A stretch of 64,000 nt of DNA, taken from contig JACEFZ010011694.1 of NCBI GenBank assembly GCA_014155875.1, positions 260,224-324,223 on the forward strand, given 5' to 3'. The stretch comes from Cepaea nemoralis. Lineage: Eukaryota > Mollusca > Gastropoda > Stylommatophora > Helicidae. The notes beneath the pieces are model-generated. The model had not been told where the DNA came from and ran no database searches. It saw nothing but the letters and a program-made list of their open reading frames with translations. The position numbers were made by a program, and so were the translations under genes. Numbering within the stretch: position 1 is the stretch's first letter; each line of letters opens with the position of its first letter. Shown here one piece after another: positions 9,028 to 64,000 of this stretch.

Positions 9028-9400
9028 ACTGGAATTTCCTTCAAATTATCCATGAAGCGATGGTTGTGGGAGACGTACATAAAGAATCTCCATCAACTTA
9101 CTCCTGAAGCGATGGTTGTGGGAGACGTACATATAGAATCTCCATCAATTTACTCCTGAAGCGATGGTTGTGGGAGACGTACACACTAGAGTCTTCTTCA
9201 ACTTATCGCTTAAGCGATGGTTGAGAGAGAGAGGTACACACTGGAATCTCCTTCAGCTTACTCCTGAAGCGATGGTTGTGGGAGACGTACACACTAGAGT
9301 CTTATTCAACTTATCGCTTAAGCGATGGTTGAGAGAGAGAGAGAGACGTACATACTAGAATCTCCTTCAGTTTACTCCTGAAGCGATGGTTGAGGGAGAA
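8985..9400. repeat. 53-bp minisatellite derived from GPCR helix 8 codons
   Basis: Eight copies of a unit marked by gcgatggttg begin at 9004, 9057, 9109, 9161, 9214, 9269, 9322 and 9383, giving steps of 52-61 bp. On the minus strand a unit encodes YVSHNHRFRSK, nearly the receptor's own VYFSLNHRFRSK. The array begins inside the receptor's C-terminal codons and ends at a diverged helix 8 copy leading into another tail. CT-rich expansions inside two units (ctctctctct) account for the longer steps. Confidence 0.9.
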
Positions 9401-35647: not shown

Positions 35648-36608
35648 AGCGTTCCGAGCCATTGAGGTTCTTTGCTGCAAATACAATCTGTCTCCATTCT
35701 GGTGGACCTTCTCTTGCCAGTCGTTGATTCCAAGTGCTTGTAGGTCTGTACATGTATTATCTCTCCACCGCCTTCTTGGTCTACCTCGGGGTCTACGGTC
35801 ATTTATTTCCTGAGTGTAAGCGAGTTTTGTTTCCCTATTATCTTCCATTCTTTCTAATGCCCCAGCCATTGTAATCTATTAGCCTTCATGATACCAGTGA
35901 TTAGCGGGGACTTAAACAAATCATAAATGTCTTTGTTACTTCTTCTTTTCCACTCTCCACTTTGTGTATCTCTAATGGGTCCAAAGATGCGTCTTAAAAT
36001 TTTGTTCTCAAAGGTTTGTAACTAGGCTTCGACTCCTTTCGTTGTACTCCAGGTTTCAGAGCCATACAGCACAACTGGTCTGATCAGTGTTTTGTATATT
36101 GTGATTTTGGTGTTACGAGATAACGCCCTTGATTTTAGTAGATGTTGTAGTGCATAGTATATCTTATTTCCAGAGTTGATTCTAGTTTGTATTTCTTCCC
36201 TTATGATGGTGGAGCAGTTGAAGATTGCACCCAGGTATTTGTATGTTTCCGTTCTTTTAATGGTCATATTATCTATTTGTATGTGGCCAGAGTTTTTAGC
36301 CATTCCGTCTCTTGAAATTACCATATATTCTGTCTTATCTTGGTTGATAACCAGCCCCATCTGTTGGGCTTTTTCCTTTAAGTGAGTCAATATTTCCAAT
36401 GTCTTTTGTTCACTTTGCCCTATAATATCTATATCATCTGCATAACCAAGCAGCTTGGATGTTCCTCCAATATCACATTCCTCCTTTACCTTCCTTACAA
36501 CTTTCTCTAGAGCCAGATTGAAGAGTAGCGGCGATAGTGCATCACCCTGTTTCAAGCCAGATGTTATTTGGAAGGGGTCTGATTTCCTGCCTTTATATGT
36601 TACTATAT
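35484..36608 (-). mobile_element. 5'-truncated family A non-LTR retrotransposon with long (GAA)n tail
   Basis: The insertion runs from inside the RT (YKGRKSDPFQITSGLKQGDA) to a long tail. TSDs of 15 bp, atactcaacaactct, lie at 35469-35483 and 36609-36623. The 3' part is the same as the 2505-2885 copy. The TSD used is itself a copy of the family B TSD, so this insertion came after family B. Confidence 0.92.
36022..36555 (-). pseudogene. Family A reverse transcriptase, C-terminal RT part
   Basis: The frame starts at MKQGDALSPLLFNLALEKVV and includes the catalytic YADDIDI box, GLVINQDKTEYMV, YLGAIF, and the thumb region ending TLIRPVVLYGSETW, with a stop after KGVEA. The frame then resumes with TFENKILRRIFGPIRD and continues to the RRPRGRPRRRWRDN motif near 35780. 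One nonsense codon therefore separates RT and C-terminal domain. No endonuclease is present because of 5' truncation. Confidence 0.9.
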
Positions 36609-36649
36609 ATACTCAACAACTCTATATACAATATATACTCAACAACTCT

Positions 36650-39600
36650 CATCATCATCAAGTGCCGTGCCGGCTGGCGTAGTCATTCATGGCTCTCCAC
36701 AGATCTCGGTCTTTGGTGTTCTGGATCAACTCTGCTGATGATATTCCTCCATGCCACCGTCTCAGTCCGTCCAGCATCATTTCTCTTGGTCTGCCTCTGC
36801 CTCTCTTCCCCTCGATCTTTCCAGTTGTCACGATGTTCTCCAATGCCTCTCTTCTCATCACATGACCAAAGAAAGATGTTTGTCTCTTTCTTATTGTTGT
36901 ATATAGTGTTCTAGTTTCATTAGCCTCTTTCAGGCAATCGTTGTTAGTTACTCTGGCAGTCCAAGGAATTCGCAACATTCGTCTTAAAAACCACATCTCT
37001 GTTGCTTCTAAGTTCTTCCTAATTTGTTCATTTACATTTCAAGATTCGCTGCCATACAGCAAAACTGGTTCTATATAGCATTTTAGTACTCTCTTTCTTA
37101 CATTCATTGATAGCGACTTATTGCATAAGATACTCTTCATTTTCTGAAATGCTGTCTTTGCCTGCCCTATTCTGCTCTTAATCTCTTTTGTACATCTTCC
37201 ATCTGATGTTATAAGTGCCCCTAGGTATTTAAAATTATCCACTTGGTTGAGAATTTCCCCTTCTATTTCTATGTCACATTTTGGCGTCCCCATTTTCTTT
37301 GATATCACCATTGTTACTGTTTTCTTGATATTCAAGGACAGTCCTTTCTGTGCACTCTCTGTTACTACACTGTCCGACAATTGTTGTAGGTCTGTTGCAT
37401 TATCCGCTACCAATACTGTGTCATCTGCGTAGCGTATATTGTTTATATTATATCCTCCGATTAGTATTCCTGGCTTCTCTTTGATCTCTCTCATTATTAC
37501 TTCGCTATACAGGGAGAAGAGATCGGGTGACAAGACACACCCCTGTCGTACTCCTAGCTTTATCTGTTCGTAACTACCCTCTTTATTTCCCATTTTAATT
37601 GCTGCTACTTGGTTCCAGTATATATTCTTTATTATTCTTAAATCTTTCCCATCAATGTTGATATCTTCCAACATTTTAATCAGCTCATCATGTTTTACTT
37701 TATCAAATGCCTTAGTATAATCTATGAAGCATAAATATATGTCTCTTTGTTTCTCTATTGATCTTTCTATTAGTGTTCGTAATATATATATTGCATTGTT
37801 TGTACCCTTTCCTTCCATAAAACCATACTGTTCTTCACTAATTTCCATTTTTATTTTCTTTCTTGTTCTTCTCATTATAATTCTGAGTAGAAGCTTAGTG
37901 ACATGGTTTATGAGGTTAATTGTACGAAAATCTTCACAATCAATTGCTCCTGGTCTTTTTGGTATAGCTATAAATACAGATTTCAGCATATCATTGGGTA
38001 AATATCCACTACTGTAAATATCATTCAACATTTTGGTTAATATATCTACTCCAAATTCTCCCAACACTTCTAATTCTTCTATTGTGATTTCATCTGGCCC
38101 AGCTGTTTTTCCTTTCTTCATATGTTTCATAGCATCAGCGACTTCTTCTTTTAGAATAGGTGGGCCTTCTAAGTTACTTTCTTCTGTTAATTCTTCCCTT
38201 TCTCCATTATATAATTCTCTTATATACTCATTCCACCTCGTCATTATAGCACCTTCCTCCAATAAAGTCTGTCCTATTTTTGATTTCAAACACCTTGTAT
38301 TTATTCTTATTTTTCTTCCTGTGAGCTCGCTGATTTGTCTGTACATAATTTTTTGATCTTTAATGGAATTTAATTCAATTTTTCTGCATTGCTCATTTAA
38401 CCAACTTTCTTTTGCCTTCACACATTTATCTCTTATTTCTTTATTTATCTTAGCATACTCTTGTTTGTCATTTTTATTCTGTTTCCTTTTGTCCATCAAC
38501 CTTAAGATTTCTTCATTCATCCATTTTTTCTTAGCTTTTTGGCTTCTCTCCGGTAATATTTCGTTGCTAGTTTGATGAATGGAGTCCCTTAACATTTCCC
38601 ATTGTTCATCTATACTCTGTATTTTAGCTATTGCATTGTACCTATTTTTCACAGTCACTCTGTATTGTTCTTGAATTTCTTTATCTACTTTCAGAACCTC
38701 TTTATTAAGTCTCAAGTTTTTAACCATTTTTTCCCCTCTCTTTAATCTTACTTTTATTTGTCCACATAGTGGTACATGATCACTGTTACCGTCAGCACCA
38801 GGCATTGTCTTTACATTAATTAATGCATTTCTAAATCTTTTATTAATAAGTATGTAGTCAATTTGGTTGCGTATTTTCATATCAGGGCTTTTCCATGTGT
38901 ATAGTCGTCTTTTATGGTGTTTAAACCATGTGTTTCCAATTATCATATCCTTAATATTTGCCCATTCTATTAGTTTCTCTCCTCTTTCATTTCTTGTACC
39001 TAAACCGTAATTCCCCACTATATCCTGTATTTTTCCCTTTCCTACTTTTGCATTAAAATCCCCTAGTATTATTTTTATTTCTTGTGATCCAATTTGGGCT
39101 ATTGCCATTTCAACTTCATCGTAAAAGTTTTGTATATCTTCATCACTACTGTTTGTTGTTGGTGCATATACTTGTATAATATTTATATCTATTGGTTTGC
39201 CTTTGATTTTGACCATTATAACTCTATCTGAAATGCACCAGTATCCAGTCATAGATTTGGCTGTATTTTCATCAAATATTATTCCTACACCTTTTTCATG
39301 TGTGTCCCCTCCAGAATAAATTATTGTGTGTTTGTCGGTTATAATTGTGCCAGGTCCCTTCCATCTCATCTCACTTATGCCTAGTATATTCATTTTCATG
39401 TTTTCCATATTTCTCTTAGAACATTGTTTAACTTTCCTAGCTCATTTAATGTCCTAACATTCCACGTTCCTACTCTAAATTTATTTAGTTTAGTTATTGT
39501 TTTAGTTTTGCCATCAGTAGCTGGATGACGGTCTGGTGTCACCTGTGGCTCATGACTGTCCCTACCGGACGAGGATGTCCTAAGACAGCCATTAACGTCG

Positions 39601-39840
39601 TTCACTATTTCTGAAATGTGTGTCGCCATGAAATCTTGGGAAGATAATGTGGTGGTTTCCCCTTGCCTTCCACATTCACACGGTGGTCTTTTAACTCTGC
39701 CTTTGACAGCCATTTCCGACTGTCATGACAAGTGAGTGCCCTGCTCTGCTCAGCTGCAGAGTTGTCCACTTATTCCGGTGGATAGTCGGTCCCCAGAGCT
39801 GTGTTAGCCACACCGTGGTGTGTTTCCATCCTCTACCGTC
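36650..39840 (-). mobile_element. RTE-like retrotransposon, apparently full length (family B)
   Basis: About 3.19 kb on the minus strand, bounded by 12-bp TSDs ctcaacaactct (36638-36649 and 39841-39852). It has a short 5' untranslated region, one protein region with endonuclease and RT, and a (GATGAT)n tail. Size, domain order and short-repeat tail fit the RTE group. Other family members in the window are at 1639, 6168, 20586/24475 and (mirror) 60292. Confidence 0.92.
36658..39713 (-). pseudogene. Family B endonuclease-reverse transcriptase, two lesions
   Basis: The frame begins at ATG 39713 with a basic leader (MAVKGRVKRPPCECGRQGE), and the endonuclease starts at FRVGTWNVRTLNELG. A one-base frameshift near 39405 moves reading into the 789-codon frame 39408-37039. 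That frame holds the rest of the endonuclease (GISEMRWKG, IIQVYAPT, ILGDFNAKVG, NQIDYILI, SDHVPLCG) and RT (KKGKTAGPDEITIEEL, FIDYTKAFDKV, QGCVLSPDLFSLYSE, YADDT). A TGA stop at about 37038 takes the place of the expected tryptophan after YGSES. The C-terminus then continues to 36658 (EMWFLRRMLRIPWTARV, FGHVMRREALENIV, RGRGRPREMMLDGL). Such proteins are often listed as craniofacial development protein 2-like because of the shared endonuclease. It is close to functional, suggesting recent activity of the family. Confidence 0.9.
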
Positions 39841-41599
39841 CTCAACAACTCTAGCTTTTAAAAATTAATAACAATTAATTTATTAAAAGAAAAGTGTAAT
39901 GTATGTGAGAAGCGTATGCGAAGAATGTGTGACGTGTACTATAATGTGTGTAGAATCGGACCATCAGATCCATCGCCCATTCAGATCATCCTAGCAAGGT
40001 CACACCACAGCACGTTAGGTCAGCACAAGACAACCTCACCAAGTGATGTATCTCTCCTGCCAGACACTGACTTTCTTCTGTACCTACCTGGTAATCCATC
40101 TACATGATCATCCGAAATAGATACAGTCTATAGTTTACCACTGATCATGGACCGGTTGCACACTGCACATTATAAGTTCCTATAGTTCCTAAAATGTACA
40201 AATCCCTTGTACTGTGAAATTAGGTATCACTGTTATTGTTAATATACTTGATCCTATCTAGTGTCTATATTGTCTCAAGTACAATGTCCCTTGTAATCTT
40301 TCACTGGAATCTACCACACCATGTGAATGTTACATTTAAAGTTCTCGTTTAGTTACTATTATTCGTATGATGTATGGTGTATCATCAAACATCACCCATG
40401 CTAGGTGAACCTTATCACACAGGAATCGTTATATGGTTTTGCTCATCTGAGCCCTGTTCCGGTGGACCCTCCTGATCATAGGCCCAGCGTAAACAATATT
40501 GGCCAGATTTTCTTCTCGGACGTTATTCATTTCCGTAAAAACAACATTGACTGTTCAACTGGTGTTCTCCCCAATCGGAGTAAAACTTCTTCAAAACGAG
40601 TGTAGAGCTTCCTCGTAACTGGCAGGGAACCTGTTAGAGAAATAACACACCTGGTGAGAGCACCAGTCACTGACCCTACCAGCTGAGAGTAGGCCTACGG
40701 CCTCGCTCAGATATTTATCAGCGAACTAAACTCTGTCATAGAGCAGATGAGCTCATCACCTAGGTCCGAATCAGGCTATGACAAGGAAAGACCAATAAAC
40801 AGAGTGCAGAACCCCAGTGGGCACCCCACTGAAAGATCCCACTATTGGACACTTCCCCCATCTCCCAACCCATCCTTAATCTCTCCAAATATCACCCCAC
40901 TACACTATTCTCACTAGCAGAGCTAATTCTCACTTCACTACTCTATTCTCAACTAACAGAGCTAATTATTTCCTCACCCTAGCTAGTTTTAACAAGGCTA
41001 CTGCCTATATTAATTAGGCCTAAATACACTATATGTAATACCTTATGCAACACCGCATCACTCCTGGATGGCCTCTACAATTTGCCATAAAGACACATGT
41101 TATTTAATCTTTAATTAAATCTAACACTGTAGATGCTCTCCGAATTCCTAACAGTGGTACAGAAACACGTCAGCTCAAGTCAACTTTATTGTCTACACTA
41201 ACTGTAAACAAGTCATGTTTTTGTCAAAGAGCCTTGGATTGTTCTAGTGAAGTTCTTTGATGTCAACACATCAGATGGTTCCTGGGGCAGACTATCCATA
41301 TCAGAATTCTTCTCTCCCCTTTGTTTAATCAATGCAAAAGTGGTCTCTCTTGTTTCAACAACCAAAACAAGGTAGCCTGTTTCCTGCATTCTCCTAATCG
41401 GGTCACAATAACAAGCCTACAATTTGCTGTCTTGTGGCGACTTTCAAAGACGACTCCACTGTTTGATCTCACCGACTCCCCGTAGTAAACAACTTGTAGT
41501 TGCGAATCAAACTGTCTTTGGTATTTTTATCATCTGAGTGTTAAGTTACAGTGATTTCACGACACTTAGTACTGATCCTTGTGTTATGTCTTAGTATGG

Positions 41600-41830
41600 C
41601 ATAGCCTGCATGGTGGCAGCATTACCCATATGCCTACTAAAGGAGATGGTATGCCCCATATGAAGAATTTGGGAACGGTGAGCCTTCGGGACGACCAACT
41701 GACCGTATAGGTTGTCTCCCCTTCCTGATCTCCTGTAGAGTATCTTATTCTTCATGTCGTACTGCCCTGTCCTGGTGGATCAGCACTTCTCTGCAGCTTT
41801 TAGCAGCAAGGACGTAAAGTAGCATCCTCA
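41600..41830 (-). pseudogene. Integrase zinc-binding (H2C2-type) remnant of the LTR element
   Basis: The minus strand reads ILYRRSGRGDNLYGQLVVPK and AHRSQILHMGHTISFSRHMG. This resembles the N-terminal zinc-binding domain of Ty3/gypsy integrases (LVVPK-R--IL---H----GHMG). It is directly downstream of the protease-like frame (AQSEDATL), so RT, RNase H and the integrase core have been deleted. Confidence 0.7.
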
Positions 41831-42285
41831 CTCTGGGCAGTTCGTAGCTCCCCCGGCAGTGGGTTAATCACACTTGCTTCTGCCTCTTCCGTTCTTGTCT
41901 TAGAGCGAGTCTGTATTGCTCCCATATGGATTGGCTCCCTGGGAATTCCCAGAAAGACATACCGGCAACCGAGGATTACGGGAAAAATGGGATCGATCAA
42001 TACAGCGGCCTTGATTGTGCCGGTGACATACCTTGACCGAATCTCCACATTAGCAATGGGCAACTTCATGGCCACAGCACTCTTCTGTGCAGGCTGTATC
42101 TCCATGGTCTCACCTGTGAATTGTTCTGGATGTACCAGATCCGCAGAAATCACGGCCTCCCCGTCCAGTCCTGTGTAGTACAAACACTCCACTTGACGAC
42201 CGTTAACCTCTACCAATTCCACTACAGGTGGTTTTTCCTGGTCTGGAGTCTCCTCCTCGGCCTCGACCTGTTTGGTGGGCTCCAC
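41800..42285 (-). pseudogene. Retropepsin-like segment of the LTR element
   Basis: The frame has VEVNGRQVECLYYTGLDGEA, DLVHPEQFTGETMEIQ, NVEIRSRYVTGTIKAA and IDPIFPVILG, which match the layout of Ty3/gypsy proteases (DTG-x-G near the start, hydrophobic-ILG near the end). The catalytic DTG appears as YTG, so an active protease is not expected. It is followed by IQTRSKTRTEEAEA and AQSEDATL, the linker that normally precedes RT. The frame start at 42285 is arbitrary; it continues from gag. Confidence 0.75.
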
Positions 42286-42329
42286 CTTAGGTTTCCCGGG
42301 GCACCCGACGAACTGAGAATATCCTGACT

Positions 42330-43755
42330 TTCCCCTGCAGTCAATAGCATTGTGCGTGTTTGACTTGCAGTTTTTGCACCATTACCCTGTCCTAGATTTT
42401 CTAGTGCCGGACTTGAGTGAGCTCTCCTCGTGGCGGGCTTCCTCGTTGACCTTGGCATTTTCAGTGACAACCCCCTTGGAAGTCACTTGACATGCTGCGA
42501 AGTGAGGGGTCTTAGCCGTCGATTTTCAGTCCCTCGTATTGTGAGAGGGTGACTTACAAATTGAACACCACTTCTCCGACCACGGTCGTTTTGATGTAGA
42601 GCTCGAAGTGCTCTTGCTTCCCTCCTTCGTCTTCTCCAAACTATCCTCTGAAGTTTGTACATAAGGTTCCCCCTTTTTGGTTCCTGAGTTTTTGGCTTTC
42701 TTTCTGTCCTATTTCTCCTGACTTTTGGTGTTGGTTGAAAGGTTTTCCCCTGCCTCCACATGTACCTCGACGAACCGTTCTGCTAATTTTGTCACGAGGT
42801 CAATACGTTCCGCTCTTTGTTCTCCCAGGAATGTCCTGAGAGGTTTCGACATTTGCTTCTTCAGCTGGTCGACCACCATGAGCTCTTCCAGACTCTCATA
42901 GTCATGTGTGAACCCAGCCAAATCCATCCACGTATGGAGATAGGAATTTAGACGCAAACTGTAGGCGGCAAACAACTCCCCCGGTTCTCGTTTCGCTGCT
43001 CGAAATTTGTTCCGGTAGGTATGTGACGTTACCTCGAATCATTTCAGCAGAGCCGTCTTCAACTCGTCATAATTGTTCTCATGTCCTGGTGGCAGGTGAG
43101 AATAAACCTCGTAGCCGGTCCCGCGTAATCCCTAGGACAGCTTAAGACACCATTCGTCACGATCCAGACCCATAGCAACAGACATGGCCTCGAAGCGTTG
43201 AAGTTACTTGTCAATGGTCTCTTTGTCCTCTTCGTAGATCGCTAGAGGGAACTTAATAGCATGGTAGCTATGTCCACCTACTGGTGTTGAGTGAGGGAGA
43301 GAGGAGCCTCCCACCGCTTCCTCAGTTTCCCCATTAAATTGCCTCTTAAGCTCGAGTTCCCGCATTCGGTACTCGTGCTCCCTTTTCTGAGCTTCTTGTT
43401 CAGCTTCCAATCTCTTAGCAGCCCGTTGAGCTTCAAGCTTCTTAGCTGCTTGCTCAGCTTCAAATTTCTTAGCTGCTTGCTCAGCTTCAAGTTCCAGCCT
43501 TCTAGCGGCTTGTTCAGCTTCCAATTTCTTAGCAGCTTGTTCTGCTTCCATTTTCTTAGCAGCTTGTTCTGCTTCCATCCTCTTGGTTTCTAACTCCAGT
43601 TTTCTCAATTCCATCTCAGCCTTCCGATCTTCCCTTCTGCTTGACGATAATCTCTCTCCACCTCCTGTATGTAATCTGTTAGTGCAGAACCCGACAAACC
43701 CATTTCTTCCCCCTTTGCCCTTAGTTCTGCCACAGTTAGTTTAGGAGTGGCCATT
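42330..43755 (-). pseudogene. gag of the LTR element, frameshifted
   Basis: The ATG at about 43753-43755 begins MATPKLTVAELRAKG, followed by GLSGSALTDYIQEVERD. A frameshift precedes a strong coiled coil (43614-43204) made of EAEQAAKK repeats, which ends YHAIKFPLAIYEED. A capsid-like region follows (42975-42709: FAAYSLRLNSYLHTWMDLAG, VDQLKKQM). Two zinc knuckles come last: the first, CSICKSPSHNTRD, has a stop where the final cysteine belongs; the second, CKNCKSNTHNAIDC (42337-42378), is a perfect CCHC. Gag would form the particle and bind the element RNA; here it is broken at several places. Confidence 0.82.
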
Positions 43756-44009
43756 TTTCAGAAAGGTAAGTCAGCAGGTCGAGTACAATTTAACTGCAAA
43801 CCAATATATAGATATATGAACAAGTACAATAAATCTATATATTTAATAACACACAGCACAACACAACACAATCACTCAGTGACAAGAGTAGAACCATGAC
43901 CACAGACCTATGCAGACGTGTGAAGTGTGAACAGGTAAGATATGTGTCTTGACCTCTATCTACATTCACTCTAGCTGGATCCTCACTAATATGATATCTC
44001 CGTCCTGTA

Positions 44010-44151
44010 ACTAAAGATCCTGTGTCAAAGGACCCCGTTGTCAGGAGATCCCGCTGTCAACAGATCCTGTCTACAAGAGATCCCGCTGTCAAAGGACCCC
44101 GTTTACGAGACATCCCGCTGTCCAAAGATCACATTTATGAACCCCCAATAA
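44010..44151 (-). promoter_or_regulatory. Leader with imperfect tandem repeats and candidate primer-binding site
   Basis: Next to the 5' LTR end the minus strand reads TTATTGGGGGTTCATAAATG. The TGGGGG-start a few bases from the LTR is a candidate tRNA primer-binding site, unmatched to a particular tRNA. The leader then has about six imperfect repeats of about 20 bp around gatcccgctgtc and aaggaccccg. Confidence 0.5.
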
Positions 44152-46074
44152 TGTCGTGTTTCCGTTTAAAGTGTCGTCCCTGGAGTGAGAGGAATCAACA
44201 CCCACATTATATTTTAACCCCTTATCATTATCCTGGAAAAACCAATAGAATCCGTCTACAAAACTCCGTCAGTTTATGGACACCTCTTTCTCTCTCTCTC
44301 TCTATCACTGCTGTATCATGCCCCCTCTCATTCTTCCCCAACGCAACATACTCAACAACTCTAGCTTCTAAAAATTAATAACAATTAATTTATTAAAAGA
44401 AAAGTGTAATGTATGTGAGAAGCGTATGCGAAGAATGTGTGACGTGTACTATAATGTGTGTAGAATCGGACCATCAGATCCATCGCCCATTCAGATCATC
44501 CTAGCAAGGTCACACCACAGCACGTTAGGTCAGCACAAGACAACCTCACCCAGTGATGTATCTCTCCTGCCAGACACTGACTTTCTTCTGTAGCTACCTG
44601 GTAATCCATCTACATGATCATCCGAAATAGATACAGTCTATAGTTTACCACTGATCATGGACCGGTTGCACACTGCACATTATAAGTTCCTATAGTTCCT
44701 AAAATGTACAAATCCCTTGTACTGTGAAATTAGGTATCACTGTTATTGTTAATATACTTGATCCTATCTAGTGTCTATATTGTCTCAAGTACAATGTCCC
44801 TTGTAATCTTTCACTGGAATCTACCACACCATGTGAATGTTACATTTAAAGTTCTCGTTTAGTTACTATTATTCGTATGATGTGTGGTGTATCAACAAAC
44901 ATCACCCATCCTAGGTGAACCTTATCACACAGGAATCGTTATATGGTTTTGCTCATCTGAGCCCTGTTCCGGTGGACCCTCCTGATCATAGGCCCAGCGT
45001 AAACAATATTGTCCAGATTTTCTTCTCGTACGTTATTCATTTCCGTAAAAACAACATTGACTGTTCAACTGGTGTTCTCCCCAATCGGAGTAAAACTTCT
45101 TCAAAACGAGTGTAGAGCTTCCTCGTAACTGGCAGGAAACCTGTTAGAGAAATAACACACCTGGTGAGAGCACCAGTCACTGATCCTACCAGCTGAGAGT
45201 AGGCCTACGGCCTCGCTCAGATATTTATCAGCGAACTAAACTCTGTCATAGAGCAGATGAGCTCATCACCTAGGTCCGAATCAGGCTATGACAAGGAAAG
45301 ACCAATAAACAGAGTGCAGAACCCCAGTGGACACCCCACTGAAAGATCCCACTATTGGACACTTCCCCCATCTCCCAACCCATCCTTAATCTCTCCAAAT
45401 ATCACCCCACTACACTATTCTCACTAGCAGAGCTAATTCTCACTTCACTACTCTATTCTCAACTAACAGAGCTAATTATTTCCTCACCCTAGCTAGTTTT
45501 AACAAGGCTATTGCCTATATTAATTAGGCCTAAATACACTATATGTAATACCTTATGCATCACCGCATCACTCCTGGATGGCCTCTACAATTTGCCATAA
45601 AGACACAAGTTATTTAATCTTTAATTAAATCTAACACTGTAGATGCTCTCCGAATTCCTAACAGCGGTACAGAAACACGTCAGCTCAAGTCAACTTTATT
45701 GTCTACACTAACTGTAAACAAGTCATGTTTTTGTCAAGAGCCTTGGATTGTTCTAGTGAAGTTCTTTGATGTCAATACATCAGCTGGTTCCAGGGGCAGA
45801 CTATCCATATCAGAATTCTTCTCTCCCCTTTGTTTAATCAATGCAAAAGTGGTCTCTCTTGTTTCAACAACCAAAACAAGCTAGCCTGTTTCCTGCATTT
45901 TCCCAATCGTGTCACAATAACAAGCCTACAATTCTCTGTCTTGTGGGGAATTTTCAAAGACGACTGTCCTGTTTGATCTCACCGACTCCCCGTAGTAAAC
46001 AACTTGTAGTTGCGAATCAAACTGTCTTTGGTATTTTTATCATCTGATTGTTAAATTACAGTGATTTCACGACA
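44152..46074 (-). repeat. 5' LTR, uninterrupted
   Basis: 1,923 bp with terminal TGTCGTG and CACGACA. On the minus strand a polyadenylation-type AATAAA lies at 45695-45700. Differences from the 3' LTR are few, mostly single substitutions, so insertion is fairly recent. Frames inside have no recognisable protein. Confidence 0.92.
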
Positions 46075-46079
46075 TACAG

Positions 46080-47030
46080 CCTGCTGACCAGGACTGGACA
46101 ACAGAGAGACCATCACTAGGAAAATAACAAGAACACAACTCCAAATCTGGAGATGAGTCTTACAGTGCGGAGACGGGATTCACCATCCTGAGACACACAA
46201 CACAAATCTATGGATCCCTGTGGTTCACAGAGGAAATCGGTAGATTGGGCTCCAGATTCTATCGGGCCCCTGTGCCTCAGCCAAATCCAATATTGTGCTC
46301 AATTCCACCAGTGGAGTCCCCAAACCGACTGGGACACATTCCTATAACGAGACCACCACTTACTAAATGGAAATCTTTTCTCGAGCATGGAAAGCTCAAA
46401 TGAATCAAATTAGAAACTGTAGCCTTAACCATGAAGTCACAAACTAATATATAAAAAAATCGACTATTGAATCAGCTGGGAGGGGAAGGGAAAGATGTGA
46501 GGTGGTGGAAAATGGGAAGTGAGGAAAAATGGGGATAAAAAAAAATAGAGGTACGGAAAAATGGGAGTACACAAGGAGAGAGGTAAAGGAAAATGGGGGT
46601 AAACAAGGCCCAAGGAATGTTCCTCCTCTCATGATTGAGGAATCACATCCTCAACAATCTTGCATCAGCTCAAGCAGAAATACCTTGCGGGTTCAGCCGC
46701 CTGTTTGACTTCATTACACGTTTGTGCACTTGTCCACCAGGCATAAAAAAAGTCGCTTAAAAAAAAAAACTTTGGTTTTTTTCCGACATTTTGGTCGTAT
46801 CTCAATCATGCTTCTGGATGGAGGTGGTGTGAGGGGGACAGTTTCTTTCCCCCCTCTTTGCTTCAGTTCTGGCTGACGCGCCCGCCTGCAGCGGGGACTC
46901 ACACTCAACTAAACTGTGAGGCAAATAGTGCGCCAATTACCCGCCGGGTCTATTACCATGCACCAGCTATGGGGGAGGGGTTCTGGTCATTGCGTCAGCG
47001 AAACATCCTGTAGAGCTGTGTCAAGTTACT
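46080..47030. other. Unrecognised spacer
   Basis: Contains an AG-rich, low-complexity stretch at about 46440-46620. There is no supported gene. Confidence 0.45.
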
Positions 47031-47032
47031 TC

Positions 47033-47616
<584 letters not shown>

Positions 47617-47629
47617 ACTGTTATACGGT

Positions 47630-48499
47630 CAATCAATCATGTGCCATGCCGGAAAGCGTGGGCGGTCATGACTCGCTATTTAACTCGATCACCAGAGTCG
47701 TAGATCAGCTCAGTGTTCCTGTCTCGTCCATGCCATGTGGCCAAGCCATCTAGGTAGTTTCCTCTCGGTCTTCCTCTTGGTCTGTTCCCTTCGATCTTGC
47801 CAGTTGTTACCAAGTTCTCCAATCCATTTCTTCTCATAACATGTCCAAAAGATATTGACTGTCTACGTCTAATTTCTCTAATCAGTCTACGATTTTCATT
47901 TGTCTCCTGTAGTACTTGGTCATTGGTTTTTCTGTCTGTCCATGGTACTCTTTGCATTTTCCTCAGAAACCACATTTCTGTAGCCATCAAATGTTTTTCA
48001 GCTTGACTGCACATTGTCCAAGTTTCACATCCACACAAAAGAACAGGCTCTATGTACCCCATCAACACTCTTTTTCTCGTTTCAATTGACATCTTTTTAT
48101 TGGTCAGAATGTTTTTCATCTTGCTAAAGGCTACTTTCGACATGGCGATTCTTGTTCTAATCTCTTCAAGGCATCTCCCATCAGATGTTATGACTGTTCC
48201 GAGATAATTGTATCGATTCACTTGTTGAAGAATATTCCCATTTACTTGTATATGACATTGTGGTACGTCGTTCTTCCTAGTGAAGACCATAACCTGTGTC
48301 TTCTTACAATTTAATTCCAACCCCAGCTGCTCACTGTGTACAACAACCGCGTCGACTAATCGTTGCAGATCCTGTGCATTGTCTGCAATCAATACTGTAT
48401 CATCTGCATATCTAATGTTATTGATGTTTCTTCCTCCAATGCTGATTCCATTTATATCTTCTACATTTCTGAAAATATTTTCACTGTATAGGGTAGTTC
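47630..48499 (-). mobile_element. 5'-truncated RTE-like retrotransposon (family C)
   Basis: TSDs actgttatacggt (13 bp) lie at 47617-47629 and 48500-48512. The minus strand reads from YSENIF, NINNIRYADDTVLIADNAQD to the C-terminus (YIEPVLLCGCETW, EMWFLRKMQRVPWTD, SFGHVMRRNGLENLV, RPRGRPRGNYLDGL), then GGCATGGCACATGATTGATTG. The protein frame is open from 48392 to 47676. Family C is related to family B but clearly distinct. Confidence 0.93.
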
Positions 48500-48542
48500 A
48501 CTGTTATACGGTAGCTCAGTCATATCTGACTAAGACCTGACA

Positions 48543-50072
<1,530 letters not shown>

Positions 50073-50084
50073 ATATATATATAT
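50073..50084. repeat. Palindrome centre, (AT)6
   Basis: gtgaca (50067-50072), twelve alternating AT bases, then tgtcac (50085-50090). The symmetry axis falls between 50078 and 50079. Confidence 0.95.
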
Positions 50085-51508
50085 TGTCACAGTCTCACAT
50101 AAGGGCGGTATCAACATAAAAATAATAGAGAGTGGAGAAGGGATAGAACTCCAGCTAAAGGGAAAGAACCGAGTCACTCGAAGGCTCGAATAATCCAGAG
50201 CCTTTTCGAAGGACCGGTCAGCGTGTCCACAGCCCCGTGGACACCGATGGAGCCCGCCGATTGCGGGCGGAAAGAGGTTACCACCCTTGTCGGATTGCGA
50301 CACGTGTGGAAAGGCAGACACGGAACTGGACATCGAGAGAGCAACAGGGCTTACCTTAAGGGGACTTGATAGCTTAAAACCCAAGTGTATTTAGGGGTCT
50401 TAATGCATACGTTAGATAGCTGATAGAGTTGTTGTAATAATCATGTATTATTGCTTTATTGTAAACTCCTGTGATACGCAACTTGAGGGTTGCTAGCTGG
50501 CGAAAACCTTTCTTCGCAGCTTACTGTAACATAATATAAATAAATGATGTTAGAATTGTATCTGAATGGAGTTTGTTGCCTGTATGAGCCCGGTTTCATT
50601 CCCCTGGGTATCTAGGACGGTGACAGGCTATTTGGGGGCTAGCCGGTTTTGGCAAGCACAAGCTTTACTTTCCAGACAGCTCTTGGTTTTGCCAAGTAAA
50701 CTATATCAACTTTCGTACATGACAAAGTCTAGAACTTTGCAGCTATCATCGTATCATCTGTGAATGAGCTATTGTAGTCCCTCTACAAAAGTAATTGAAA
50801 TAACTATGATGTTCATGAAATTTAACATTGACATGACTGGACAATTACAGTGACAGTTGCTAATTTTTTTTTATTCCAACATCATATTGTTCCCCGAAAT
50901 ATCGTGTGTATGTACCTCTCCTCCAGCAGTGGCGAGAAAACAGGAGAACCAAACAAGACTACAGTCAAGAAACCAGGAAAAATAAGATGAGTCCCATTTC
51001 ATGCTCATTAGATCCCTAAGCGATACTCATTCATGATTCATTGATGTAACATTTTTCTTTGTATTGTTTTGTATATATATGCTAATACTCATAACCAAGT
51101 AAACCTGCTCGTGCAAATTTGAATGTAAACATTAAGGGGGATAACCAAATTTTGTATACCCAGACTAATATCAAAGGGATTTAATTTCGATAAAGTGAAC
51201 ACTAACTAAAATACAAGATGTCAACATTAGAACAGTGCATTGAATTAGGGATTAGGTTAGGGTATACTGCAGAGAAAACTTTCAGAATGGGCACAAAAGA
51301 CGCATTCAGAAAATATTGCACGAGAAGACAGAGCTACGGAAGAGAGATAGAGAAAAGATGCAAGCAGAAAGAGAAGAGAAAAAGATGCCAAGCAGAAGAG
51401 AAGAGAAAAGATGCAAATGGAAGCTAAAGAAAGAAAATGCTTACCTTAAGCATTTTGTTGCCTGTATGAGCCCTAGTTTCATTCCCCTAGTGTATCTAGG
51501 ACGTGACA
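50085..51508 (+). mobile_element. Mirror copy of the short LTR element
   Basis: Reverse complement of 48649-50072; LTR at 50085-50625. The gag start MSTLEQCIELGIRLGY recurs at 51218 with altered frames. Probably not an independent locus. Confidence 0.85.
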
Positions 51509-51579
51509 TATATATATTATATATATATATATATAATATATATATATATATATAATAGTATATATATATATAGATATAT

Positions 51580-51612
<33 letters not shown>
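51509..51612. repeat. (AT)n tract, mirror of 48545-48648 with interruptions
   Basis: AT repeats with extra or missing bases compared with the uninterrupted left-arm tract. Confidence 0.9.
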
Positions 51613-51614
<2 letters not shown>

Positions 51615-51657
51615 TGTCAGGTCTTAGTCAGATATGACTGAGCTACCGTATAACAGT

Positions 51658-52531
51658 GAACTACCCTATACAGTGAAAATATTTTCAGAAATGTAGAAGA
51701 TATAAATGGAATCAGCATTGGAGGAAGAACATCAATAACATTAGATATGCAGATGATACAGTATTGATTGCAGACAATGCACAGGATCTGCAACGATTAG
51801 TCGACGCGGTTGTTGTACACAGTGAGCAGCTGGGGTTGGAATTAAATTGTAGAAGAAGACACAGGTTATGGTCGTCACTAGGAAGAACGAAGTACCACAA
51901 TGTAATATACAAGTAAATGGGAATATTCTTCAACAAGTGAATCGATACAATTATCTCGGAACAGTCATAACATCTGATGGGAGATGCCTTGAAGAGATTA
52001 GAACAAGAATCGCCATGTCGAAAGTAGCCTTTAGCAAGATGAAAAACATTCTGACCAATAAAAAGATGTCAATTGAAACGAGAAAAAGAGTGTTGATGGG
52101 GATACATAGAGCCTGTTCTTTTGTAGTGGATGTGAAACTTGGACAATGTGCAGTCAAGCTGAAAAACATTTGATGGCTACAGAAATGTGGTTTCTGAGGA
52201 AAATGCAAAGAAGTACCATGGACAGACTAGAAAAACCAATGACCAAGTACTACAGGAGACAAATGAAAATCGTAGACTGATTAGAGAAATTAGACGTAGA
52301 CAGTCAAATATCTTTTGGACATGTTATGAGAAGAAATGGATTGGAGAACTTAGTGACAACTGGCAAGATCGAAGGGAACAGACCAAGAGGAAGACCGAGA
52401 GGAAACTACCTAGATGGCTTGGCCACATGGCATGGACGAGACAGGACACTGAGCTGATCTACGACTCGGTGATCGAGTTAATAGGCGAGTCATGACCGCC
52501 CACGCTTTCCGGCATGGCACATGATTGATTG
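51658..52531 (+). mobile_element. Mirror copy of the family C element
   Basis: TSDs accgtataacagt at 51645-51657 and 52532-52544 mirror the left arm. The reading frame that is open on the left is broken here by indels. Confidence 0.88.
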
Positions 52532-52994
52532 ACCGTATAACAGTAGACGGTACTACCTCTTTCTGTTAGCGACCGAAACGTTGGGCGGCGCCTTACCAAA
52601 CCCGACACCCCACATTGTGCCAACGGCTTCGGGCGGAAGAGCGCAATTGGGAGGGTACAAGCCTTACCCTGGTGCGAGGAAATGCAACCTAAAGACAAAG
52701 TGTCATGGCAGGGCAGACCAGGCCCTAAGCCTTGGTTGGCGGCTGGTCTAGGATCGAAGCTCCGACAGGTGGACAATTAGAGAATTGCTTTGCTGATCCG
52801 GCAGCTTCTGTAGCTTGTCTTGTTCCAGATGTAGAGGTGTTACCTTTCCTCTGGAGTGAACTAGGCAGGCCGAGAGAGGGATCATGCTGCATGGCAACAC
52901 ATGATCTCTATATATTTTAGCCCAGGCTTTGTGCTATGGAGAGGCAATAACTCCATCCCTTACAAACTATCGTCTGTCAAGACGGCAAGGTGCC

Positions 52995-52997
<3 letters not shown>

Positions 52998-53034
<37 letters not shown>

Positions 53035-53049
53035 TATATATATATTAGA

Positions 53050-53093
<44 letters not shown>

Positions 53094-53140
53094 GTGTGTG
53101 TGTGTGTGTTTGGTGTGTGTGTGTGTGTGTGTGTGTGAAG
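52998..53140. repeat. Mirror (AT)n-(TG)n tract
   Basis: Counterpart of 47033-47166 with interruptions, such as a gg inside the TG part. Confidence 0.9.
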
Positions 53141-56100
53141 TACTTGACACAGCTCTACAGGATGTTTCGCTGACGCAATGACCAGAAACCCCTCCCCCAT
53201 AGCTGGGTGCATGGTAATAGACCCGGCGGGTAATTGGCGCACTATTTGCCTCACAGTTTAGTTGAGTGTGAGTCCCCGCTGCAGGCGGGCGCGTCAGCCA
53301 GAACTGAAGCAAAGAGGGGGGGAAAGAAACTGTCCCCCTCACACCACCTCCATCCAGAAGCATGATTGAGATACGACCAAAATGTCGGAAAAAAACCAAA
53401 GTTTTTTTTTTAAGCGACTTTTTTATGCTGGTGGACAAGTGCACAAACGTGTATGAGTCAAACAGGCGCTGAAACCCGCAAGGGTATTTCTGCTTGAGCT
53501 GATGCAAGATTGTTGAGGATGTGATTCCTCAATCATGAAGAGGAGGAACATTCCTTGGGCTTGTTTACCCCCAGTTTTCCTTACCTACTCTCCTTGTGTA
53601 CGCCCATTTTTCGTACCTCTATTTGTTTTATCCCCATTTTTCCTCACTTCCCATTTCCACCACCTCACAGTCTTTCCCTTCCCCTCCCAGCTGATTCAAT
53701 AGTCGATTTTTTTATATTAGTTTTGTGACTTCATGGTTAAGGCTACAGTTTCTAATTTGATTCATTTGAGCTTTCCATGCTCGAGAAAAGATTTCCATTT
53801 AGTAAGTGGTGGGCTCGTTATAGGGAATGTGTCCCAGTCGGTTTGGGGACTCCACTGGTGGAATTGAGCACAATATTGGATTTGGCTGAGGCACAGGGGC
53901 CCGATAGAATCTGGAGCCCAATCTACCGATTTCCTCTGTGAACCCCAGGGATCCATAGATTTGTGTTGTGTGTCTCAGGATGGTGAATCCCGTCTCCGCA
54001 CTGTAAGACTCATCTCCAGATTTGGAGTTGTGTTCTTGTTATTTTCCTAGTGATGGTCTCTCTGTTGTCCAGTCCTGGTCAGCAGGCTGTATGTCGTGAA
54101 ATCACTGTAATTTAACAATCAGATGATAAAAATACCAAAGACAGTTTGATTCGCAACTACAAGTTGTTTACTACGGGGAGTGGGTGAGATCAAACGGGAC
54201 AGTCGTCTTTGAAAATTCCCCACAAGACAGAGAATTGTAGGCTTGTTATTGTGACACGTTTGGGGAAAAATGCAGGAAACAGGCTAGCTTGTTTTGGTTG
54301 TTGAAACAAGAGAGACCACTTTTGCATTGATTAAACAAAGGGAGAGAAGAATTCTGATATGGATAGTCTGCCCCTGGAACCAGCTGATGTATTGACATCA
54401 AAGAACTTCACTAGAACAACCCAAAGGGCTCTTGACAAAACATGACTTGTTTACAGTTAGTGTAGACAATAAAGTTGACTTGAGCTGACGTGTTTCTGTA
54501 CCGCTGTTAGGAATTCGGAGAGCATCTACAGTGTTAGATTTAATTAAAGATTAAATAACTTGTGTCTTTATGGCAAATTGTAGAGGCCATCCAGGAGTGA
54601 TGCGGTGATGCATAAGGTATTACATATAGTGTATTTAGGCCTAATTAATATGGCAATAGCCTTGTTAAAACTAGCTAGGGTGAGGAAATAATTAGCTCTG
54701 TTAGTTGAGAATAGAGTAGTGAAGTGAGAATTAGCTCTGCTAGTGAGAATAGTGTAGTGGGGTGATATTTGGAGAGATTAAGGATGGGTTGGGAGATGGG
54801 GGAAGTGTCCAATAGTGGGATCTTCAGTGGGGGTGTCCACTGGGGTTCTGCACTCTGTTTATTGGTCTTTCCTTGTCATAGCCTGATTCGGACCTAGGTG
54901 ATGAGCTCATCTGCTCTATGACAGAGTTTAGTTCGCTGATAAATATCTGAGCGAGGCCGTAGGCCTACTCTCAGCTGGTAGGATCAGTGACTGGTGCTCT
55001 CACCAGGTGTGTTATTTCTCTAACAGGTTTCCTGCCAGTTACGAGGAAGCTCTACACTCGTTTGAAGAAGTTTTACTCCGATTGGGAGAACACCAGTTGA
55101 CAGTCAATGTTGTTTTTACGGAAATGATAACGTACGAGAAGAAAATCTGGACAATATTGTTTACGCTGGCCTATGATCATGAGGGGTCCACCGGAACAGG
55201 GCTCAGATGAGCAAAAACCATATAACGATTCCTGTGTGATAAGGTTCACCTAGGATGGGTGATGTTTGTTGATACACCACACATCATACGAATAATAGTA
55301 ACTAAACGAGAACTTTAAATGTAACATTCACATGGTGTGGTAGATTCCAGTGAAAGATTACAGGGACATTGTACTTGAGACAATATAGACACTAGATAGG
55401 ATCAAGTAATATTAACAATAACAGTGATACCTAATTTCACAGTACAAGGATTTGTACATTTTAGGAACTATAGGAACTTATAATGTGCAGTGTGCAACCG
55501 GTCCATGATCAGTGGTAAACTATAGACTGTATCTATTTCGGATGATCCATGTAGATGGATTACCAGGTAGGTACAGAAGAAAGTCAGTGTCTGGCAGGAG
55601 AGATACATCACTGGGTGAGGTTGTCTTGTGCTGACCTAACGTGCTGTGGTGGTGACCTTGCTAGGATGATCTGAATGGGGCGGATGGATCTGATGGTCCG
55701 ATTCTACACACATTATAGTACACGTCACACATTCTTCGCATACGCTTCTCACGATACATTACACTTTCTTTTAATAAATTAATTGTTATTAATTTTTAGA
55801 AGCTAGAGTTTGAGTATGTTGCGTTGGGGAAGAATGAGAGGGGGCATGATACAGCAGTGATAGAGAGAGAGAGAGAAAGAGGTGTCCATAAACTGACGGA
55901 GTTTTTGTAGAACGGATTCTATTGGTTTTTCCAGGATAATGATAAGGGGTTAAAAATATAATGTGGTGTTGATTCCTCTCACTCCAGGGACGACACTTTA
56001 AAACGGAAACACGACATTATTGGGGGTTCATAAAAGTGATCTTTGGACAGCGGGATGTCTCGTAAACGGGGTCCTTTGACAGCGGGATCTCTTGTAGACA

Positions 56101-56431
56101 GGATCTGTTGACAGCGGGATCTCCTGACAACGGGTCCTTTGACACAGGATCTTTAGTTACAGGACGGAGATATCATATTAGTGAGGATCCAGCTAGAGTG
56201 AATGTAGATAGAGGTCAAGACACATATCTTACCTGTTCACACTTCACACGTCTGCATAGGTCTGTGGTCATGGTTCTACTCTTGTCACTGAGTGATTGTG
56301 TTGTGTTGTGCTGTGTGTTATTAAATATATAGATTTATTGTACTTGTTCATATATCTATATATTGGTTTGCAGTTAAATTGTACTCGACCTGCTGACTTA
56401 CCTTTCTGAAAATGCCACTCCTAAACTAACT

Positions 56432-56815
56432 GTGGCAGAACTAAGGGCAAAGGGGGAAGAAATGGGTTTGTCGGGTTCTGCACTAACAGATTACATACAG
56501 GAGGTGGAGAGAGATTTCGTCAAGCAGAAGGAAGATCGGAAGGCTGAGATGGAATTGAGAAAACTGGAGTTAGAAACCAAGAGGATGGAAGCAGAACAAG
56601 CTGCTAAGAAAATGGAAGCAGAACAAGCTGCTAAGAAATTGGAAGCTGAACAAGCCGCTAGAAGGCTGGACTTGAAGCTGAGCAAGCAGCTAAGAAATTT
56701 GAAGCTGAGCAAGCAGCTAAGAAGCTTGAAGCTCAACGGGCTGCTAAGAGATTGGAAGCTGAACAAGAGCTCAGAAAAGGGAGCACGAGTACCGAATGCG
56801 GGAACTCGAGCTTAA
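56432..56815 (+). pseudogene. Mirror gag N-terminal region
   Basis: MAELRAKGEEMGLSGSALTD continues in one frame into the EAEQAAKK coiled coil, then shifts to KLSKQLRNLKLSKQ because of a further indel. It compares with the left-arm gag start at 43755, where the frame is lost before the coiled coil. Which arm is right cannot be settled here. Confidence 0.7.
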
Positions 56816-59800: not shown

Positions 59801-60291
59801 AATGTAACATTCACATGGTGTGGTAGATTCCAGTGAAAGATTACAAGGGACATTGTACTTGAGACAATATAGACACTAGATAGGATCAAGGTATATTAAC
59901 AATAACAGTGATACCTAATTTCACAGTACAAGGATTTGTACATTTTAGGAACTATAGGAACTTATAATGTGCAGTGTGCAACCGGTCCATGATCAGTGGT
60001 AACTATAGACTGTATCTATTTCGGATGATCATGTAGATGGATTACCAGGTAGGTACAGAAGAAGTCAGTGTCTGGCAGGAGAGATACATCACTTGGTGAG
60101 GTTGTCTTGTGCTGACCTAACGTGCTGTGGTGTGACCTTGCTAGGATGATCTGAATGGGCGATGGATCTGATGGTCCGATTCTACACACATTATAGTACA
60201 CGTCACACATTCTTCGCATACGCTTCTCACATACATTACACTTTTCTTTTATAATTAATTGTTATAATTTTTAAAAGCTAGAGTTGTTGAG

Positions 60292-63200
60292 GACGGTAGA
60301 GGATGGAAACACACCACAGTGTGGCTAACACAGGCTCTGGGGGACCGACTATCCACCGAATAAGTGGACAACTCTGCGCTGAGCAGAGCAGGGCACTCAC
60401 TTGTCATGACAGTCGGAAATGGCTGTCAAAGGCAGAGTTAAAAGACCACCAGTGTGAATGTGGAAGGCAAGGGGAAAGCACCACATTATCTTCCCAAGAT
60501 TTCATGGCGACACACATTTCAGAAATAGTGAACGACGTTAATGGCTGTCTTAGGACATCCTCGTCCGGTAGGGACAGTCATGAGCCACAGGTGACACCAG
60601 ACCGTCATCCAGCTACTGATGGCAAAACTAAACAATAACTAAACTAAATAAATTTAGAGTAGGAACAGGGGAATGTTAGGACATTAAATGAGCTAGGAAA
60701 GTTAAACAATGTTCTAAGAGAAATATGGAAAACATGAAAATGAATATACTAGGCATAAGTGAGATGAGATGGAAGGGACCTGCACAATTATAACCGACAA
60801 AACACACAATAATTTATTCTGGAGGGGACACACATGAAAAAGGTGTAGGAATATATTTGATGAAAAATACAGCCAAATCTATGACTGGATACTGGTGCAT
60901 TTCAGATAGAGTTATAATGGTCAAAATCAAAGCAAACCAATAGATATAAATATTATACAAGTATATGCACCAACAACAAACAGTAGTGATGAAGATATAC
61001 AAAACTTTTACGATGAAGTTGAAATGGCAATAGCCCAAAATTGGATCACAAGAAATAAAAATAATACTAGGGGATTTTAATGCAAAAGTAGGAAAGGAAA
61101 AATACAGGATATAGTGGGGAATTACGGTTTAGGTACAAGAAATGAAAAGAGGAGAGAAAACTAATAGAATGGGCAAATATTAAGGATATAAGAATTGGAA
61201 ACACATGGTTAAACACCATAAGAGACGACTATACACATGGAAAAGCCCTGATATGAAAAATACGCAACCAAATTGACATACATACTTATTAATAAAGATT
61301 TAGAAATGCATTAATTAATGTAAAGACAATGCCTGTGCTGACGGTACAGTGATCATGTACCACTATGTGGACAAATAAAAGTAAGATTAAAGAGAGGGGA
61401 AAAAATGGTTAAAAACTTGAGACTTAATAAAGAGGTTCTGAAAGTAGATAGAAATTCAAGAACAATACAGAGTGACTGTGAAAAATAGGTACAATGCAAT
61501 AGCTAAAATACAGAGTATAAGATGAACAATGGGAAATGTTAAGGACTCCATTCATCAACTAGAACAACGAAATATTACCGGAGAGAAGCCAAAAAGCTAA
61601 GAAAAAAATGGATGAATGAAGAAATCTTAAGGTTGATGGACAAAAGGAAACAGAAGTAAAATGACAAACAAGAAGTATGCTAAGATAAATAAAGAAATAA
61701 GAGATAAATGTGTGAAGGCAAAAGAAAGTTGGTTAAATGAGCAAGTGCAAGAAAAATTGAATTAAATTCCATTAAAGATACAAAAAATTATGTACAGACA
61801 AATCAGCGAGCTCACAGGAAGAAAAATAAGAATAAATACAAGGTGTTTGAAATAAAAAATAGGACAGACTATTATTGGAGGAAGGTGCTATAATGAAGAG
61901 TTGGAATGAGTATATAAGAGAATTATATAGATGGAGAAAGGGAAGAATTAACAGAAGAAAGTAACTTAGAAGGCCACCTATTCTAAAAGAAGAAGTCGCT
62001 GATGCTATGAAACATTGAGGAAGAAAAAGGAAAAAACAGCTGGGCCAGATGAAAATCACAATAGAAGAATTAGAAGTGTTGGGAGAATTTGGAGTAGAGT
62101 ATATTAACCAAAATGTTGAATGATATTTACAGTAGTGGATATTTACCCAATGAGTATGCTGAAATCTGTATTTATAGCTATACAAAAAGACCAGGAGCAA
62201 TTGATTGGTGAAGGATTTTCGTACAATTAACCTCATAGAACCATGTCACTAGCTTCTACTCAGAATTAGATGGAAGAACAAGAAAAGAAAAATAAAAAAT
62301 GGAACAATTAGTGAAGAACAGTAGTGTTTTATGGAGGAAGGGTACAAACAATGCAATATATATATTACGAACACTAATATAAAAGATCAATAGAGAAACA
62401 AAGAGACATATATTTATGCTTCATAGATTATACTAAGGCATTTGATAAAGTAAAACATGTGAGCTGATTAAAATTGTTGGAAGATATCAAGCATTGATGG
62501 GAAAGATTTAAGAAAATAATAAAGAATATATACTGAACCAAGTAGCAGCAATTAAAATGGAAATAAAGAGGGTAGTTACGAACAGATAAAGCTAGGAGTA
62601 CAGACAGGGGTGTGTCTTGTCACCCGATAGCTGTTCTCCCTGTATAGCGAGAGTAATAATGAGAGGAGATCAAAGAGAAGCCAGGATACTAATCGGAGGA
62701 TATAATATAGACAATATACTCTACGCAAGATGACACAGGTATTGGTAGCGGATAATGCAACAGACCTACAACAATTGTCGGACAGTGTAGTACAGAGAGT
62801 GCACAGAAAGGGACTGTCCCTTGAAATATCAAGAAAACAGTAACAATGGGTGATCTCAAAGAGAAATGGGGACGCCAAAATGTGACATAGAAATAGAAGG
62901 GTAAATTCTCAACCAAGTGGATAATTTTAAAATACCTAGGGGCACTTATAACATCAGATGGAAGATGTACAAAAGAGATTAAGAGCAGAATAGGGCAGGC
63001 AAAAGACAGCATTTCAGAAAATGAAGAGTATCTTATGCAATAAGTCGCTATCAATGAATGTAAGAAAGAGAGGTACTAAAATGCTATATAGAACCAGTTT
63101 TGCTGTATGGCAGCGAATCTTGAAATGTAAATGAACAAATTAGGAAGAACTTAGAAAGCAACAGAGATGTGGTTTTTAAGACGAATGTTGCGAATTCCTT

Positions 63201-63516
63201 GGACTGCCAGAGTAACTAACAACGATTGCCTGAAAGAGGCTAATGAAACTAGAACACTATAATACAACAATAAGAAAGAGACAAACATCTTTCTTTGGTC
63301 ATGTGATGAGAAGAGAGGCATTGGAGAACATCGTGACAACTGGAAAGATCGAGGGGAAGAGAGGCAGAGGCAGACCAAGAGAAATGATGCTGGACGGACT
63401 GGAGACGGTGGCATGGAGGAATATCATCAGCAGAGTTGATCCAGAACACCAAAGACCGAGATCTGTGGAGAGCCATGAATGACTACTGCCAGCCGGCACG
63501 GCACTTGATGATGATG
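60292..63516 (+). mobile_element. Mirror copy of the full-length family B element
   Basis: Bounded by agagttgttgag on both sides. It holds the same TGA after YGSES and the same endonuclease-region frameshift as the left copy, plus dozens of extra indels, so those shared lesions are real and the others are probably noise. Confidence 0.88.
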
Positions 63517-63557
63517 AGAGTTGTTGAGTATATATTGTATATAGAGTTGTTGAGTAT

Positions 63558-64000
63558 ATATAGTAACATATAAAGGCAGGAAAACAGACCCTTCAAATAA
63601 CATCTGGGTTGAAACAGGGGGATGCACTATCGCCGCTACTCTTCAATCTGGCTCTAGAGAAATTTTAGGAAAAGGGAAAGGGGATGTATATTGGAGGAAC
63701 ATCCAAACTGCTTGTTATGCAGATTATAAGATATTAAGGGGAAGTGAACAAAAAACATTGAAAATTGACTCACTTAAGGAAAAAGCCCAACAATGGGCTG
63801 GTTTCAAACCAAAAAAGACAGAATATATGGGAATTTCAGAGACGGAATGGCTAAAAACTCTGGCCACATACAAAAATAATATGACCATTAAAAACGGAAA
63901 CACAAATACCTGGTGCAATCTTTAACTGCTCCACCCTCAAGGGAGAAATACAAAATGAATCAACTCTGGAAATAAAATTACTATCAAATACAACATCTAC
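63558..64000 (+). mobile_element. Mirror copy of the family A element, cut by window end
   Basis: Begins after the TSD (about 63543-63557) and shows the KQGDALSPLLFNL RT motif. Later sequence is heavily corrupted compared with 36100-36600. Confidence 0.85.

Follow-up and report, generated by a model that had tools for sequence, protein, structure and literature searches.

The contig JACEFZ010011694.1 (C10826) of the gastropod Cepaea nemoralis ends in a large inverted repeat. The window, that is, the whole stretch of DNA that was analyzed, comprises the last 64,000 nucleotides of this contig (C10826:260224-324223), and belongs to the 3.47-Gb assembly GCA_014155875.1, which consists of 26,579 contigs. 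Comparison of the window with itself gave a single long inverted alignment, in which the segment 36138-64000 matches its own reverse complement with 97.28% identity over 28,152 columns (45,511 bits). The left arm, at positions 36138-50078 of the forward strand, is 13,941 bases long. It is mirrored by the right arm, an error-bearing copy of 13,922 bases on the reverse strand that runs back from 64000 to 50079. The centre of the mirror is positioned between bases 50078 and 50079, within the motif TGACA(AT)6TGTCA, whose (AT)6 stretch occupies 50073-50084. The arms meet without any spacer and the innermost 198 bases of either arm are perfectly complementary. This symmetry is far above the chance level. 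Within 200 bases of the fold, the two halves lie on opposite strands of one and the same place, as the halves of a fold-back read would, the object examined here being a contig rather than a read.

Window position 64000 is base 324,223 of C10826, which is the final base of that contig. Since there is no more contig beyond 64000, the mirror extends no further than 36138 on the left. An earlier note on this DNA, made from the letters alone, had described a near-perfect palindrome folded at this (AT)6 and extending over 36100..64000. The palindrome, its centre and its end at 64000 are all borne out by the self-alignment, but the start was placed 38 bases too low. The note had also described mirrored ends of long terminal repeats (LTRs), and one LTR with its mirror copy is confirmed. 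This 540-bp LTR (TGTCACCGTCC...TGTGACA) belongs to a high-copy retroelement, adjoins the fold at 49533-50072 on the forward strand and recurs at 50085-50625 on the reverse strand of the right arm.

The fold point in a second contig

The left arm is matched along its whole extent by another contig of the assembly, C13997. A 1001-base probe taken from the outer end of the left arm (window 36100-37100) has its second full-length place on this contig, with 100% identity, and its third in the right arm, with 94% identity and clipped by the contig end (40 of 2,776 candidates scored). A 39.9-kb stretch of the second contig (C13997:370100-410000) was compared with the window. The two sequences are colinear from window position 32070, at which the compared stretch starts, to 50084, and then diverge. 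At the divergence point C13997 reads TGTGACA, continues into a perfect (AT)47 array (C13997:388243-388336) and then leads into other sequence. No long mirror is found in C13997 within the 39.9 kb; the largest inverted match there has 389 columns and is distant from the divergence point. A 1001-base probe that spans the (AT)47 array and 819 bases beyond it has C13997 itself as its sole full-length match (40 of 1,244 candidates scored). The assembly itself therefore contains a normal route through the fold point. The fold is thus crossed unbroken by another sequence of the same genome, in one contig that is possibly the other haplotype.

A 1001-base probe from the interior of the right arm (window 52500-53500) matches at full length in its own place and, with 97% identity each, in the left arm and in C13997, which makes three places, and no further full-length copy of the right-arm version is present among the 40 candidates scored out of 3,823, the remainder of which are partial matches.

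Differences between the arms

The letters of the left arm, the right arm and C13997 were compared at each of the 13,941 left-arm positions. All three agree at 13,305 positions. The right arm has 353 private differences and C13997 has 275, whereas the left arm has a single one (position 37824); at 7 positions all three differ. Equal rates in the two arms would predict about 177 to 177, so the observed 353 versus 1 (p 2e-104) means that the arms did not diverge through mutation over time. The right-private differences are spread throughout, with 193 in 36138-41999, 67 in 42000-46074, 79 in 46075-48999 and 14 in 49000-50078, the C13997-private counts for the same four regions being 4, 249, 1 and 21. 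The arms agree with each other at the 275 C13997-private positions, and both therefore represent one haplotype. Judging from this comparison of letters, the right arm is the haplotype of the left arm plus errors. Two other identities of the right arm were considered and rejected: that of the other haplotype, represented by C13997, on account of the agreement at these 275 positions, and that of an old, diverged duplicate, on account of the 353 versus 1 and of the substitution spectrum described below.

The same positions bear on an assembly mis-join, in which either the other-haplotype contig or a different copy of a repeat would have been joined in inverted orientation at the AT array. The LTR at the fold has at least 38 other places in the genome, which makes it a typical site for a mis-join. 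This explanation is nevertheless scarcely credible, given that the right arm matches the left arm wherever C13997 alone differs and that the mirror spans 13.9 kb, far exceeding the 540-bp LTR.

The substitutions of the right arm comprise 36 transitions and 58 transversions, close to the 1:2 ratio of random changes. Complementary types occur unequally (combined p 4e-4): A>C is found 16 times and T>G 5 times, T>C 16 and A>G 3, C>T 14 and G>A 3, and G>C 6 and C>G 1, whereas C>A (11) and G>T (9), as well as A>T (6) and T>A (4), show no asymmetry. The C13997-private substitutions served as a control. They consist of 127 transitions and 104 transversions, and their asymmetry is not significant overall (combined p 0.12). 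Mutation of double-stranded DNA would account for such a strand-unequal spectrum less well than base calls made on a single strand of a molecule. The indels of the right arm also favor pyrimidines in the left-arm sense, which make up 107 of the 135 inserted and 119 of the 154 deleted bases, compared to an expectation of 57% (p 1e-7 and 2e-7, respectively). The differences between the halves thus resemble read errors, in being confined almost wholly to one arm (353 versus 1) and in their one-strand, transversion-rich substitutions. Mutation-like differences on both arms, as expected of a real palindrome, were not found, a result that counts only against an older duplication.

When the right arm is aligned relative to the left arm, 352 events are counted: 140 deletions, 118 insertions and 94 substitutions. 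Most of the indels (228 of 258) involve one base. Homopolymers are enriched, with 44 indels per 1,557 bases in runs of three versus 70 per 7,616 single bases. The earlier note had ascribed the differences mostly to one-base indels in homopolymers and simple repeats. This holds for the size of the indels and for the enrichment, but homopolymers do not account for the majority, as 81 of the 231 single-letter indels fall in runs of at least three. The note had further seen the right arm become more corrupted with distance from the centre. Counted per 500 bases, the density of events stays flat at about 2.0% up to a distance of 11 kb from the centre, for a total of 216 events, and the last 2.9 kb of the right arm contains 136 events, 49 of which are within the final ~440 bases. 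A uniform distribution is rejected (Kolmogorov-Smirnov test, p 2e-10), but rank correlation over 27 bins gives no steady trend with distance from the centre (rho 0.20, p 0.31). The error profile combines a constant level with a deterioration at the contig end. What stands of the proposed gradient is the rise in the last ~3 kb; a steady gradient is rejected, being absent over the first 11 kb.

The consequences of these errors can be seen in a long interspersed nuclear element (LINE) and in two AT arrays. In the left arm, the LINE has an open frame of 789 codons (37039-39408, reverse strand), which contains reverse transcriptase and endonuclease domains. The mirror of this frame (60725-63123, forward strand) is broken by 54, 73 and 50 stops in the three coding-strand frames and has no stop-free run longer than 56 codons. 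An (AT)45 array at 47077-47166, which also has 45 units in C13997, is split into 17 and 15 units in its mirror at 52999-53091. The (AT)52 array at 48546-48649, to the left of the LTR element, is uninterrupted in the left arm and is split into 8, 9 and 15 units in its mirror at 51508-51611; its counterpart in C13997 has one interruption (15 + 36).

Origin of the mirrored contig end

The 28-kb mirror at the end of the contig is almost certainly one DNA molecule that was read along both strands and that the assembler retained. The mirror belongs to a known class of artefacts and is not a biological feature. A sequencing or assembly foldback had been suggested from the sequence by the earlier note, and this interpretation is supported by the end of the contig inside the mirror arm, by the passage of C13997 through the fold into different sequence and by the single haplotype of the arms. 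Further support comes from the one-strand substitution signature, which is absent in the control, and from the lack of a further right-arm copy among the 40 scored candidates.

The fold-back read could have originated as follows. A strand end in the self-complementary (AT)n array beside the LTR would snap back during library preparation. The folded end would then be ligated or filled in, so that template and complement become one molecule and are read successively. The assembler would have kept this read as a dead-end tail of C10826, and too few reads would have covered its second half for polishing, leaving errors that persist and are most numerous at the contig end. The source could be an adapter missed in PacBio sequencing or, on another platform, a fold-back formed in the library. 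The fall from 47 AT units in C13997 to 6 at the fold in the window fits such a snap-back; a haplotype difference in the size of the array would fit too. Modeled as folded DNA, the AT stretch of C13997 is predicted to form a 45-pair hairpin (-30 kcal/mol, z -6.9), with many competing registers and an unpaired centroid.

Artefacts of this kind have been described for nanopore data. In the parts of their report considered here, Heinz, Meyerson and Li (2026, PMC12870357) put fold-backs at ~0.55-0.6% of Oxford Nanopore Technologies (ONT) genomic reads and warn of tangles in assembly graphs. In their K562 samples, the in-between sequence of fold-backs is enriched in homopolymers and in di- and trinucleotide repeats, of which A and AC are given as the most frequent and AT is not named in those parts. 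The mirror in C10826 resembles these fold-backs, as far as they are described there, in that a strand is joined near-perfectly to its complement with little or no junction sequence, a short tandem repeat lies at the fold and another sequence crosses the place unbroken. It differs in that those fold-backs were reads mapped to references, whereas this one is the end of an assembled contig, and in that the repeat is AT rather than A or AC. In the portion of Spealman et al. (2020, PMC7229812) drawn upon, nanopore accuracy is reported to fall in the second arm of inverted duplicates, and that arm is recovered at reduced length. Here, too, the second arm is less accurate and shorter (13,922 versus 13,941 bases). 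However, the duplications in that study are real and their low quality starts near the junction, whereas in the window the mirror is perfect over the innermost 198 bases and the second arm is only slightly shorter. Palindromes arising in amplification, such as the chimeras of multiple displacement amplification (MDA), are, from the limited account consulted, likewise artificial inverted repeats in long reads.

A shorter structure of related appearance is found in the interior of another contig, C19371. It is a quasi-palindrome of 1787 bases with 98.9% identity (L034:118-1904; C19371:334017-335803), in which two copies of the fold-adjacent LTR are arranged head-to-head across ~180 bases of AT-rich array. 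Two separate insertions into a single AT array, a fold-back event or some other artefact could account for it.

Several observations weigh against a fold-back read as the origin of the mirror in C10826. None of the starts of 20 other contigs has a terminal fold-back (10 kb was inspected in each, which gives power only for folds within 10 kb), and such artefacts are therefore not shown to be common in this assembly. C13997 may be the other haplotype, which is compatible with an inverted duplication carried by just one of the two. The 353-to-1 ratio would likewise be expected of a real palindrome of very recent origin, if one of its arms were badly polished, and the short interior palindrome across the AT array of C19371 may be real. 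One of the six substitution pairs in the control has a p value of 0.02. The bases inserted in C13997, going by the raw count (122 of 164), lean towards pyrimidines as well, and because of this shared lean the letters of the indels are a weaker sign than the substitutions.

One rival explanation is an inverted duplication that is real and recent and affects a single haplotype. A break in (AT)n would give a hairpin-capped end that is replicated into a palindrome, and the contig end would merely be poorly polished, which by itself could produce the errors. Long AT arrays are able to form hairpins according to the fold prediction, and palindromic AT-rich repeats are known as sites of rearrangement, at least in the part of the literature considered. 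Such a duplication is very unlikely all the same. The contig stops inside the mirror arm rather than running past it, and none of the other contigs among the 40 candidates scored with the right-arm probe carries the right-arm version. The lopsided private differences, with their error-like substitutions, speak against an older duplication, although a very recent one escapes this test. Moreover, the evidence for a duplication is the symmetric copy itself, and fold-back reads are a common artefact on at least one long-read platform. Equally improbable is the wider proposal that a germ-line or somatic break in (AT)n on one haplotype created a palindrome of 28 kb or more in the heterozygous state, and that AT arrays hosting the LTR are fragile sites. 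If it were true, the head-to-head LTR pair of C19371 would be an older example, and a real fold in C10826 would mean that a chromosome had broken at an AT microsatellite.

With a fold-back read as the preferred origin, the practical significance concerns databases. The tail, if left uncorrected, would enter them as a 28-kb palindrome; several mobile elements would falsely appear in two copies, and a set of genes would falsely appear to be broken. The combination of three-way private differences with the strand symmetry of substitutions constitutes a test that requires the assembly only and could be used for screening contig ends.

Repeats and other features of the window

Among the 40 candidates scored out of 2,769, the LTR at the fold has, apart from its copies in both arms and in C13997, at least 38 further places with identities of 93-96%. 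Seven of the contigs listed contain two same-strand copies spaced 3-11 kb apart, an arrangement expected for the LTR pair of one element. Directly after the (AT)52 array of the left arm, a 55-bp segment (48649-48703, forward strand) matches the start of the LTR with 96% identity and is probably the remainder of the element's other LTR. The region 48546-50072 can thus be described as a shortened LTR retroelement, consisting of these 55 bp, ~830 bp of interior and the full 540-bp LTR. The element appears to sit inside an AT array, its right flank in C13997 being a long AT array as well. Insertion into AT arrays is not a rule for this LTR, however: among 20 sampled right flanks, two of them identical, one (L052) consists of an AT array, and in another (L053) such an array follows at a distance of ~20 bases. 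The two identical flanks (L038 and L047; C13234:202725-202814 and 153814-153903) belong to LTR copies 49 kb apart that share the same 70-base flank and are identical in 90 of 90 bases, pointing to either a duplication or an assembly fault caused by the repeat.

The left arm also contains a 1.72-kb direct repeat, whose copies at 39841-41564 and 44351-46074 are 98.1% identical. Between 42000 and 46074 the window differs from C13997 at 249 of 4,075 positions, though the two contigs are near-identical on both sides, and these differences form the bulk of the C13997-private changes. They may have arisen by gene conversion with a different copy of the repeat as donor, or may reflect a mosaic consensus.

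Outside the mirror, an open frame at 9311-10288 resembles a seven-transmembrane chemoreceptor (Pfam Srw). The segment 8379-10397 has an 84% relative at C13997:399505-401551, beyond the fold point. The segment 4948-6165 is a tandem array, in which numerous direct self-matches at 93-95% overlap one another.

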